Shown one piece after another: positions 1 to 32,118 of a stretch of 64,000 nt of DNA; within the stretch, counting starts at the first letter, position 1, and every line of letters begins with the position of its first letter. Below the pieces are notes generated by a model. The model was given only the letters and a program-made list of their open reading frames with translations. It did not search any database and was not told where the DNA came from. This stretch comes from Artemia franciscana (lineage: Eukaryota; Arthropoda; Branchiopoda; Anostraca; Artemiidae). A program made the translations under genes and the position numbers. The stretch covers positions 41,657,314 to 41,721,313 of the forward strand of contig NC_088867.1 of assembly GCF_032884065.1 (NCBI RefSeq), given 5' to 3'.

Positions 1-175
1 TTCTCATGATGTAGTGTCATCTTAAACTTGTCAAAGTAGAGCCATCTTTTTGCATCTCTGGGTTCCAAATCGTGATAGAAATCTCTGGCTGTATAACCAA
101 AGGAGTGAAATTCTTCGTCTGGGGTAAGCAAAAGAACCGTTGGTGTTTTGTTATTAGATAATCCTGGATCTCCAC
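1..175 (-). CDS. HSPA12: HSPA12-like gene, exon 4 (partial, runs off left edge)
   Basis: Minus-strand exon. The acceptor is a pyrimidine tract ending TTTCTTTCAG at 176-185, and the exon begins GTGGAGATCC. Translated with the split Gly codon from exon 3, it reads [19 protein letters not shown], then [17 protein letters not shown] and a [11 protein letters not shown] segment. These are the signature stretches of the HSPA12A/HSPA12B branch of the Hsp70 family, directly after phosphate-binding motif 1 of the actin-like ATPase fold. 57 codons plus 2 nt are visible; the exon has no donor before position 1, so it and the rest of the ATPase domain continue to the left. HSPA12 proteins are cytosolic atypical Hsp70s that bind ATP but lack the usual peptide-binding domain (family knowledge). 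Frame is open throughout with no disruption. Confidence 0.9.
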
Positions 176-2429
176 CTGAAAGAAACTATCTTAATAGTAC
201 GTTTTCACTCAGAGATCATTTATTCAATAAAGAAAGAGTTCATTTTCACTTAGATATTATTTAATCAATAAAAAATTTTCAAACTTCATTCCCAAAAGAA
301 GGCTCTATAGCCACCATATACCAGAAAGAGAGAGGGAAAGAAAACACTAAGAGAGAAAAGACATGTGAAATGTCATCCACTAATCCTCAACTGGTATAAA
401 TCAAACCAGTGCTTGGTACCGTATGCAATAAAATCACCAATAAATATTCCCAATATATCCCAGGGACATTTACCCCAGGGGTCATACAAAATGAACCAAA
501 ATAACAAGGAACAATAAAAAGAAACAGGAAGAAAAAGTAATTATTAATTTTTTTAAGGTAACAAACAGTGACACTCTTTAGCTGACTCAAATATTATAGG
601 CAGCGTTACAGGTAATCAGGGATTGGCATAAAATATGACTGACGGGGTGAATTGAATAAAAATGCTGCCTAAATTACTCATTATGATAATATATGTCAGA
701 GACAAAAGATGGACTAGTTCTGAGGGCTATGGGATCATTGCCGTAGAGCTGAAACAGTTAGTTAAAACTAAATGAAGATGTACTTGGAATATAACTTTTT
801 AAGTTCTTACTTACTATTTGAGCTAATCTTTGTATGTTTTACCTGCAGCTAGATGGAGATCTTAAATTGAATTTTCTACTTTGCTGATATGTTGTCTAAG
901 CATTTAAAAGATAAATATTTGAAAGAATGAAAAAAAAAATTGAATCAGTCTAAGAAACCAAAAGTGAATTTTACAAATATACTGATAATAAGTTCCAAGA
1001 TGGTTTAGAAGCACTTGCTATAATATCTTATAATAAAAAAGCCTTCTTTCGTTAATTAAGTAGGGTTTTAATTCATTTAAACTTTATTAGCCACAGTTTA
1101 CTAAATAAAATACCGTTAAAAGTATGTTGACCAAAAGTTCCTGAAATTTTCATATGCATTTAGTTTTTCACGGTTATGATATAAAAAAAAAAAAAAAAAA
1201 AAAAAAAAAAAATCCGTTGAGAACATATTTCATTATCAGCAAAGGGCGACCGACACTCTAGCTTATTGGAGAATTTTGTGGGGGAGTAGTTTGTCGTAAT
1301 TTCCGTATGTTTCAGTTTAGGTTACGTTTTGCTGATTGGCATTTCTGTTCGTTGCTGGTTGATTCTCCATTCATAGTCATTTATATTTTATGAATGTTTT
1401 AATAGTAGTTTCGGCAAACCACACCAATTAATAATAGCCATTAATCTCAACATTTCATTGGTTTAGACTATTCTCCAGCCAATCCTAAGAAATTATCAGT
1501 TATATGAGGTAGGCTACAGCAGTTATATGTACAAAAAGAAGTTTTTTACGGGGACGATTCATGGGAGTCCAATGGACCCACTTGTCGCCTTCCAATTAAA
1601 CAGACTGAAATTTCTTTGCTAAATTTCAACAAGATGTCTTTGGTCAAGATTTCAACCGCAATTGCCTATAAAACCACTGTTTTAATGGGCTATTTGTAAA
1701 ATTTACGGCTCTTATTTCTGGGACTACACCGACTATGTCATACTTGCAGACACATTTTTTAAACTCTCAGTTGTTTTGATTAAAATAAATTTTTGAAATG
1801 TTTATCCAGTGACACATTGAACTAATGGGGCAAAAATAGCGTTGAAAGATCAGCCGATTTTCTTATGATCAGTTTTGGTCTTAAAAAGGGTGCTGTAGCC
1901 TTTAAATTGTAACCAGTGTTTTTTTTTAAGAAGAGTATTGTAAGGAACAGTAGTTAGGGCTCTGCACCACTGTGATATTTTTTTAGTCGCAAAATAGTTA
2001 TTGAAAGAAAAAAACCCTAAAAAAAATGTAAAATTGGGACCTTCCGCAGTCCCTGTCCTATTTATTAATTAATTTATTACAAAGTGTGTAAGCCCACTTT
2101 CTATTATTTATCATACTTACCTTTCGTTAGATTATTGTCTATGTTTTTCTCTTCTTTTTGTCCATTTTAGTATTATACTTACTATGTATTTTGCAACACT
2201 GAACGTATTGCTTGACACCGTCCGTCTAGACAAATCATACAGTATAGAAGTAGCTTTCTTTTTGGTATATTTAACTTTATCTCTGTTGTCTGCATTTTTA
2301 TGTGAGTTAGAGATTTTCATTAAAATTTATTACGAATTTTCCTTTTCTCGACTTACTTTGCGGGCAGAAGTAATTGCACAAGAATGACATTTTATGTGTC
2401 AATTTTTTAAGGCTATAAATAAAAGAACA
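176..2429. other. Intron 3 of gene A, repeat-poor part
   Basis: Non-coding. The only notable item is a pure A run at 1183-1212. No exon, RNA gene or recognisable element was seen on either strand. Confidence 0.6.
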
Positions 2430-29004: not shown

Positions 29005-29630
29005 GTTGCTGACTTCTATTTTCATTGCGTGACGGTTTGAGCAAAAAAAGATGCAATTGACTACGTGTATGCATTGAAGCACTACTCTTGTCATGTACAT
29101 TACTTCTTCGATTTTCTTGACCACAGAAATTAGTATTTGGCGTCCCTGTTTGTAGATGCCTTTATATCATGGTACCAAAATACACGACCTGCTTCTCCGA
29201 CTTCAGATCGAAAAACGCCTGACCCGAGATGCCCCGGCGTTAGATCTTAAGAGAACATGTCTCGGGAACTTCTACTTTTACCGAATTTATTGTGAATATT
29301 AACTTCTATGATAGTTATATTTTTGATATTATATAAAAATGAATTGTTAAATGTAAACTGCCAGTTTTCCATAATAAATCGCCTACGATTCCAGACTACT
29401 CCATCAACCTTCGCATTTATATTCCAAAAACTTCTTTTAGGAAATACAAACAAGTTTGTTTCTGATTAAAAGAAGAAATCAGCAATGAAATTTCTAATTT
29501 TGAGGTAACACTGATGTTTTTTTTTTATTTTATAATGATTTCTATACTTTTCTAATGCATTCTACTTTTTTATTGCTTACATAAATAAAAGGAGAAGAAA
29601 ATACAACTAAGAAAGAAACAAGAATCTTAC

Positions 29631-32118
29631 CTTTTTCAGAACTGAATTGTTTCCTGGCTCCACTACGACTGATCTTGAGCGGCGTTAAATTATCACAACC
29701 CTTCGTGGGCATAAAATATTCACTAGAAATTTCATTAGAACGTATTGTCTCAGATTTCTCCGTGGGAAAATCAGAATTGCTAATGAATTTACGCAGAGAA
29801 CCGCCCTCAGAGCTGTCATAAAACCCATCGTCTGTTTCTGACCCTTCGTTAAATTTGAATGCTGTGTCCAAACTGTACTTTTTATAAAATTTACGCGCTT
29901 TAGAGTCGCTTTTGATGAACTTTGATGATCTTCTGAGTTTACTTTTTAACGAGGTCAGATTAAGGCTGGTATTGTCCTTATTTTCAGAGACTGACACAGA
30001 ATCTGTGCCCTTATTTTTTGGCAGAACATATGTGTAATTCAATATCTCTTTGGTTTGTTTTTCCGGTTGAGCAGTCACAACATTTTCAGTTGATTTGTTA
30101 CGGATTCTTGGTAATTTTATTGATTTCCCCACAACTGCAGCTGTTTCATCTTTTGAGTTATTTTTTTCTGTTAATCTGTTCTGGCAATTAAAGGAATTAA
30201 TTTGCCGGATTTCTATGCAACTTTTGTATGGATAGGCTAAGCTTGAGTAAGCCCACGCTATATCCGAAGTTTCCTCTTCAGTGTTTGGCACATCTATTAC
30301 AAAATCTGTACAGAATATTGGTTTTTTTCTAATCAAAGATTCGGATGAAACAGAATTATTAATGTCCAATGAAACATTCAAGCCAAGTCTGAAATCCAAA
30401 TTCCTCTTGAGGAATTCCGAATCCTGACCGTGTGCTTGCATTTCTTCCTCGATAATTGCATCGTCAGTCTGCTCAGAGCGATAATTCATTCCTTTGACAG
30501 GGGCATAGCAATCAACTAAAGTAGAGTTTTCTCCATCTGACACATTTCTTCTGGTGTTAAATGGTTCGTAACGTATTTTACTCTTTTCAAAATCACCGCG
30601 TTTAAGGATGGATGGATTTGAGCTAGTTTTCTTTTGACCTTCATTGTTTTCATTAGTTTTGCCCTTTTTATCTTTTAGTAATTCATGTTTGAAATCTTTT
30701 TCATGCTTACTTGCCTGTATAACTACTTTGTCTATTAAATTGTTGCAGAAGTCTGAGTGTTCATGATTCGGTGGATCATCAATAAAAGACGTCCTGCATT
30801 CAGCTTCAATTATATGTTTATGATCCGAAAGAAATCCTTCTCTGCCGTCACAAATTTCTACATTTCTAGTACTTAAGACATTCTTTGATTCAACTATTGT
30901 AGGCACGTTTAAGTTGTCACATTGTTGGCAATTTTTAACAGTGGTTTGTTCTTTTGCATACATCATATTTTCTTGAGTGAAAAAACTTGTGGTGTTCTCG
31001 CAGCACTGATGTGTTATAAGATGATTTGGACCACCCACACACACCATTTCATCTGATTCCCTTTGTCCCACAGCTGGTAAATCTGTTACAGCGCATTCTG
31101 GACCCTCAACACGCTCCACAACCAATCCATCATACTTAGTGAGCTCCAGCGCCTCGATATGCTTCCGAATCGGTATGTCACATATAATGAGCTCTGATGT
31201 CTCACTAGGACTACCCCCAACTGCTTCAGGAGTATTCAATCCCTTAAATGAATCAAGAGAAGTTACTCCAGATGATACTGTCGTATCTGATTCATCTTTT
31301 TCACACCTAACAACTATGCCATTTTCTCCTACAGTAGAGGATGTGTCGGACAGATTTGTTGCTTGATCTTTTACTTTAGAACTACAAGTTATACCGGGAA
31401 CAAAAATGAGTGACTTTTCAGAGAAATTCATTTCAGAATGTGAAATTTCATTTTCATTCCAATATGCTGCGTCAAAATCCTTAAATTCTTCTTTTTGAAT
31501 CTCATTTAAATTAATTGTAGCTATGTCCAAAATAAAGGTGTCACTGGAGGAAGTTACGGTAGAACTAATATTTAAACATTCAATATCCCGTTGAATATTT
31601 GTAGATGGTGCACATATTTCTATATTACCTGATTCTAGCTCTTCTGAAATTTCGGGGTAACTACTAAAAAGAACATGTTCCTTCGCATGGGAAGCCAGCT
31701 TGCATCTTGTGGCAGGGTCATATGAGTTTTCACAAATATTTTCACTTTTCAAATCTAAAGTTGCATCATAACTATCGATAAGCCCCTGTTTAGATACCTT
31801 CTTGGCTCGTTTTTCTGTCACGTATGAAGTAGAAGAATAAGGATAGGTATACACAGCTGCACGAGGATTAATTGTCCCTTCAAGATCGTTTCTTTCACTG
31901 CTCTTTTTGAAATTTTCAAAAGGTGCTCCATGAGAGTTTTCAGCACATGCTTCTATAGGGACTCCCTCCAAAGCAAAACTTTGATTAGAACTCGACTCAT
32001 GAATTTCACCACTTGGATTAGGTTCAACAGTCTCACAAACTGGAACAACTTCCGTTTCTGGATCAACTAACGATTCAGGTAAAAAATTCAATAAATTATT
32101 CAAATCATATGCACTCAT
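29631..32118 (-). CDS. Gene A exon 1 (start codon and long disordered N-terminus)
   Basis: Minus-strand exon of 2488 nt: 829 codons plus 1 nt. Start chosen at ATG 32116-32118 (MSAYDLNNLLNFLPESL): it has A at -3 and an in-frame TAA lies 30 nt upstream (32146-32148). An in-frame TTG slightly upstream is not a plausible eukaryotic start. The donor AAAAG|GTAAGA at 29630/29631 is strong, and the leftover G pairs with GA of exon 2. The product is Ser/Thr/Glu/Asp-rich with no recognisable fold, except a basic cluster (KLRRSSKFIKSDSKARK, about residue 725-745) followed by an acidic, aromatic EGSETDDGFYDSSEGG stretch. An undisturbed frame of this length in AT-rich DNA is strong evidence of real coding. 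A 5' UTR exon further upstream is possible. The role of this region is unknown. Confidence 0.85.

Follow-up and report, generated by a model that had tools for sequence, protein, structure and literature searches.

The locus described here raises the question of whether an HSPA12-type Hsp70 gene of the brine shrimp Artemia franciscana encodes a long N-terminal extension ahead of its ATPase domain. The window analysed is a 64,000-nucleotide stretch of contig NC_088867.1 (assembly GCF_032884065.1, positions 41,657,314 to 41,721,313 of the forward strand). Based on our analysis, four exons on its minus strand, designated E1 to E4 (Table 1), probably represent the 5′ part of one HSPA12-type gene with an N-terminal extension of about 1,250 residues. 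To our knowledge, HSPA12 proteins are poorly understood relatives of Hsp70, and their clients and partners are mostly unknown.

Exon structure and coding signal

The preliminary description of this DNA had placed exons of 829, 298 and 154 codons on one strand, leaving 1 nt and 2 nt at each junction. Our analysis confirmed these exons (E1, E2 and E3) as placed: they are present at the proposed borders in an open frame, and they reside within minus-strand stop-to-stop frames of 867 (29542..32145), 327 (20947..21930) and 167 codons (9100..9603). E1 to E4 join in phase 1 throughout to form a single uninterrupted open frame of 1,341 codons. In this consistent four-exon model 1,253 residues precede the VAIDFGTT motif, in agreement with the approximately 1,250 originally proposed. 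The physical splicing of these exons to one another is predicted from sequence. The protein would begin at position 32118, take approximately 1,250 residues from E1, E2 and most of E3, and continue with the HSPA12 ATPase domain, which would extend beyond the window.

We judge the assignment of E3 and E4 to the start of an HSPA12-type ATPase domain to be firm, with provisional human reference sequences as its basis. Compared with these, the combined E3 and E4 translation is identical to HSPA12A at 62 of 89 positions (70%) and to HSPA12B at 63 of 88 (72%), and the alignments run ungapped over the E3–E4 junction. The match to HSPA8 covered only 10 residues (E 0.74), and the earlier assignment of this ATPase start to HSPA12 was supported. 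The first in-frame ATG of E3, at 9240, is preceded by 112 codons and lies 12 residues ahead of VAIDFGTT, with RKWE further on; the E3 open frame contains no ATG upstream of it.

The open frames were compared with several controls. In 30 simulated 64-kb sequences with the dinucleotide composition of the window, the longest frame reached 181 codons, and in 30 with that of E1 it reached 200, versus 867 observed. Three-base periodicity was 22.6 for E1 (500 window stretches of 2,487 nt: 95th percentile 5.3, maximum 7.8) and 5.8 for E2 (500 intron-2 stretches of 897 nt: 95th percentile 1.9, maximum 2.5). Because both the 867-codon frame and the periodicity exceed all simulated and sampled controls, a chance origin of the open frame is ruled out. 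The periodicity of E3 was 4.9, with no control of matching length, and that of E4 was 1.0, corresponding to no signal in its 175 nt.

Codon usage was then modelled by leaving out one exon at a time, each exon being scored after training on the others and the intron controls being scored with the E1-trained model. The scores were 0.152 bits per codon for E1, 0.196 for E2, 0.199 for E3 and 0.037 for E4, whereas 2,000 intron stretches per length reached maxima of −0.089 (299 codons) and −0.036 (155 codons). E4 was not set apart by this score, as intron stretches of 60 codons reach 0.061 at the 99th percentile. The part of E3 ahead of its ATG scored 0.274 with the E1-trained model, compared with a maximum of 0.063 among 2,000 intron stretches of 112 codons. 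To avoid circularity, one further model was trained on 99 HSPA12 codons alone (E3 from the ATG at 9240, and E4) and another on a long interspersed nuclear element (LINE) frame elsewhere in the window alone. Both models placed the predicted frame above the other five in E1, in E2 and in the pre-ATG part of E3, although the lead given to the E2 frame by the LINE model was slight (0.019 versus 0.018). E1 and E2 are thus clearly coding, as is the part of E3 ahead of its ATG, and their codon composition is similar over this whole span.

The same exons stand out in a ranking of all possible exons on the strand, restricted to those whose donor and acceptor each score 0 or more. On the minus strand, the three highest-scoring internal exons were E1 (269.9, as an internal exon from 32057), E2 (107.5) and E3 (59.5), followed by a candidate at 24.5; as a first exon, E1 was the best of the strand (275.4). 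Each of the three scored highest in its joining phase. The plus-strand control reached at most 24.8 for internal and 31.3 for first exons, both inside the LINE frame. Because the ranking model was trained on E1–E3 themselves, this margin is inflated, and the codon-model tests carry more weight. Among the splice sites, the E1 donor ranks within the top 0.84% of GTs on the strand and the E2 acceptor within the top 0.71% of AGs; the corresponding figures are 0.29% for the E3 donor and 3.7% for the E4 acceptor.

One gene or two: the E2–E3 junction

The junction between E2 and E3 is the weakest of the model, and agreement in phase is by itself weak evidence, with a 1 in 3 chance per junction. Several observations weigh against a single gene. 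The E2 donor (GTTCGC) is weak, scoring 0.57 with 7.7% of all GTs equal or better, and the E3 acceptor is middling (1.54, in the best 7.6%); these scores come from generic metazoan splice matrices, not from ones trained on this species. An E2 variant ending at 21085 scores 104.3 versus 107.5, with an overhang unfit for the E3 frame, and the last 23 codons of E2 score 0.062 bits per codon, within the range of 40-codon intron stretches (99th percentile 0.084). Several AATAAA and ATTAAA hexamers in intron 2 after E2 are compatible with a 3′ end there. With the E1-trained model, the post-ATG part of E3 and E4 scored −0.119 and −0.004, respectively, and the predicted frame was not the best of six; the LINE model did not rank it first either. 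Either codon usage differs between the extension and the ATPase part, or the ATPase pieces are too short to judge. We take both pieces to be coding from their similarity to the human HSPA12 proteins, although codon statistics do not recognise them as such.

A further point on this side is that no domain or homologue of E1 or E2 was found in Pfam, NCBIfam, solved structures or viral contigs, nor of E2 in prokaryote genomes. Neither Pfam nor NCBIfam returned a family above its cut-off for E1, E2 or E3. Among solved structures E1 had no match and E2 had one, at E 1.5 and unrelated by name. Pattern matches in viral contigs (14 for E1, 7 for E2, 9 for E3 and E4 combined) and prokaryote genomes (33 for E2, 37 for E3 and E4 combined) yielded no confirmed case; animal genes are not expected in either set, and this negative result carries little weight for animals. 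Three matches in the E1–E3 searches fell below cut-off and were taken as chance: the Pfam families DUF6510 (0.21) and PRIMA1 (0.094), and an NCBIfam phosphoketolase model (0.0072, 14.6 bits versus a cut-off of 1199).

An alternative reading, which we consider unlikely, is that of two neighbouring genes. E1 and E2 would then encode a protein of approximately 1,150 residues that terminates at the TAG at 20947 or within an unrecognised last exon, and the HSPA12 gene would start from a short first exon in intron 2. The weak donor and middling acceptor, the 11.4 kb between E2 and E3, the AATAAA hexamers beyond the E2 stop (20637, 20629 and 20320), and the failure of the E1-trained model to pick out the ATPase pieces all speak for this arrangement. 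However, the 22 codons that run from 21015 to the stop at 20947 have a coding score of −0.618 bits per codon and consist of a pyrimidine-rich repeat with a 15-nt unit (20953-21008), which makes a terminal position of E2 improbable. The coding score of E2 remains positive up to 21016 (successive segments: 0.256, 0.171, 0.13 and 0.062 bits per codon), and the coding signal stops at about the donor. Also, the 112 pre-ATG codons of E3 have the codon make-up of E1 (0.274), so that HSPA12 would keep more than 110 extra residues even as a separate gene. With no ATG upstream in frame, these codons must be preceded by a coding exon with a 1-nt overhang. In intron 2 the highest-scoring first exon of that kind is 10 nt long and scores only 7.8, versus 107.5 for E2, when sites scoring at least 0 are considered, and E2 is the only substantial upstream candidate for E3 among the exons scored. 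The case for a separate E1–E2 gene, which the preliminary description had named among the findings that would refute its model, is therefore weakened by the coding sequence ahead of the E3 ATG and by the probably non-terminal character of E2, whereas the weak E2–E3 junction leaves part of it standing.

Within the single-gene reading, the exact end of E2 is a separate matter. Donors inside E2 at 21599 (3.97), 21275 (3.96) and 21084 (2.36) are all stronger than that at 21014 (0.57). The first two are in phase 1, and the third would require an additional exon to restore the frame. The E2–E3 connection could be right in outline, with the E2 donor at one of these positions or with small intron-2 exons missed, and the extension would then differ in length. 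We regard this variant as doubtful: the coding score stays positive to 21016, and full-length E2 (107.5) ranks above the variants ending at 21085 (104.3), 21276 (88.1) and 21600 (53.2).

A two-isoform arrangement, which we judge possible if rather unlikely, would combine a long product starting in E1 with a short HSPA12 of canonical length, made from an internal promoter and the ATG at 9240. This ATG is in frame, and with its position 12 residues ahead of VAIDFGTT the N-terminus would be about as long as in vertebrates, or shorter. The coding signal upstream of it argues against the short form being the only one, as it shows the longer form to be made. This arrangement is compatible with a single gene carrying the extension and does not exclude it.

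The predicted extension and the remaining features of the window

Serine accounts for 12.8% of the residues of the extension, and the acidic residues (D+E) for 15.8% versus 11.8% for the basic ones (K+R). In a charge-hydropathy analysis of 12 hundred-residue blocks covering residues 1-1200, 8 blocks were localised to the disordered side and 4 to the ordered side, all near the dividing line. The extension is likely to be largely non-globular. It had earlier been described as disordered; these blocks do not support uniform disorder, and the overall signal is borderline.

We counted 15 motif patterns (SH3, EVH1, WW, PP1 RVxF, 14-3-3 and others) in 1,247 residues and in 1,000 shuffles of them. The extension contains one SH3 class I match, equalled by 39% of shuffles, and two class II matches, equalled by 7%. 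The proposal that it bears SH3 ligands was not supported in the form given, as these motifs do not rise above shuffled sequences. The sole motif that stood out was a run of six prolines; a run of at least five occurred in none of the 1,000 shuffles. E2 carries both PPPPPP and LPPPPKPAR. The extension thus has the long proline run of a proline-rich docking protein, and docking itself is predicted. A match to the PP1 pattern, KSVRF, lies just past the junction of E2 and E3; it was set aside, as shuffles average 1.33 such matches.

We tentatively propose that the extension might function as a flexible docking arm, probably phosphorylated, through which the nucleotide-binding unit of HSPA12 would be linked to specific partners, with the proline runs in E2 as its likeliest docking sites. 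Because E2 and E3 are phase-symmetric, each running from phase 1 to phase 1, and further phase-1 donors are located inside E2 (21599 and 21275), splicing could shorten the arm and leave the frame intact, and the internal start at 9240 could provide an isoform of approximately vertebrate length. A more far-reaching scenario, which we hold to be improbable, is that an arthropod lineage fused a large coding region not known elsewhere (E1, E2 and the start of E3) onto HSPA12, creating a partner-recruiting arm of approximately 1,250 residues whose length would be tunable by frame-neutral splicing. If true, this fusion would represent a new protein architecture, an Hsp70-like ATPase with a built-in recruiting arm. 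An HSPA12 protein with its own long N-terminal arm would provide a direct handle on recruitment targets, and would help to tell whether the short N-terminus of vertebrates is the ancestral state or a reduced one.

The G+C content of most 2-kb steps in the window is 0.29 to 0.39. A search for direct repeats of at least 80 nt (seed 14), limited to positions 1-33500, identified families in the introns and upstream of the gene, and none of the listed copies overlaps E1–E4. Two open frames (51476-51928 and 54891-55196) resemble LINE fragments by eye. The open frames in the degenerate tandem repeat at 37185-37819 are probably a false coding signal. For brine shrimp, PMC8406910 gives a G+C content of 34% and introns of 3,458 bp, with which the composition of most steps and the long introns seen here are consistent; the dispersed repeats also seem similar to those of Artemia.

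Table 1. Features of the 64,000-nt window (a slash marks an exon border)
Feature	Position	Strand	Description
E1 (exon 1)	29631..32118	minus	ATG start (MSAYDLNNLLNF...); 2,488 nt = 829 codons + 1 nt; donor AAG/GTAAGA at 29630
Intron 1	21912..29630	minus	7.7 kb; GT..AG, donor and acceptor both strong
E2 (exon 2)	21015..21911	minus	897 nt = 2 + 298 codons + 1; acceptor TTTTTTTAG/GA, donor AAG/GTTCGC
Intron 2	9579..21014	minus	11.4 kb; doubtful junction; dispersed repeats inside
E3 (exon 3)	9114..9578	minus	465 nt = 2 + 154 codons + 1; acceptor TTTTGTAG/TC, donor AGG/GTAAGT
Intron 3	176..9113	minus	8.9 kb; donor strong, acceptor fair; protein alignment crosses junction
E4 (exon 4)	1..175	minus	continues past window end; acceptor TTTCTTTCAG/GT; seen part ends ...KFKMTLHHE
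Direct repeats	1-33500		16 families, 83-286 nt
AT-rich repeat	25583-25785		in intron 1
(TA)55 run	28894-29004		in intron 1
Degenerate tandem repeat	37185-37819		unit ~106 bp; long overlapping open frames on both strands
Tandem repeat	38613-39129		262-bp unit, two tandem copies, 98% alike
LINE-type reverse transcriptase frame	40925-42910	plus	Pfam RVT_1 2.5e-14 (second part), 0.069 (first part); broken by one in-frame stop, 41681-41683
Open frame	51476-51928	minus	no Pfam match at E up to 1
Open frame	54891-55196	plus	no Pfam match at E up to 1
Best leftover exon candidate	57345..57154	minus	score 24.5; 192 nt; phase 0 to 0; its frame has a sub-threshold Cylicin_N match (0.032)
Satellite array	58714-60891		109-bp unit, ~20 copies, 94% match
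Smaller satellite block	63156-63454		2.8 copies, unit very similar to the 109-bp satellite; 2.3 kb beyond main array

Comparison with known HSPA12 and Hsp70 proteins

A literature search, partial in coverage, found no description of an extended HSPA12, and the name HSPA12 is absent from the main text of a study of the Artemia HSP70 family (PMC6557860). Long HSPA12 models may well be present already among the automatic annotations of arthropod genomes. Among arachnids, orthologues of HSPA12A are described in a harvestman (Po-HSPA12A) and a spider (Pt-HSPA12A-A and Pt-HSPA12A-B), and the available part of that report mentions neither their protein length nor an N-terminal extension (PMC12717030). 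According to the same source, flies seem to have no HSPA12A, whereas other arthropods keep it (PMC12717030). The question of the ancestral N-terminus must therefore go to arthropods other than flies.

With canonical Hsp70 proteins (HSPA8 and its kin), E3 shares the DxGTTxS phosphate-binding signature, and the resemblance of E3 and E4 to them is otherwise confined to the 10-residue match described above. A search of solved structures with the 213 residues of E3 and E4 returned no Hsp70 at E up to 10, its one match (E 0.86) being unrelated by name, and Pfam PF00012 was not matched, with only about 90 residues of the domain inside the window. Both results fit a short segment of a divergent family.

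The closest resemblance is to vertebrate HSPA12A and HSPA12B, which, judged from the human proteins, share the ATPase start, the RKWEGGDPG block and KFKM with the Artemia sequence. The extension had no match better than E 8.3 to the N-termini of the human proteins. A short N-terminus of some tens of residues is a feature of vertebrate HSPA12 proteins and not necessarily of the family. It is not found here, where E3 alone contributes 112 coding codons ahead of its first ATG: approximately 60 residues precede the conserved block in the human proteins, versus 1,253 in the joined Artemia model.

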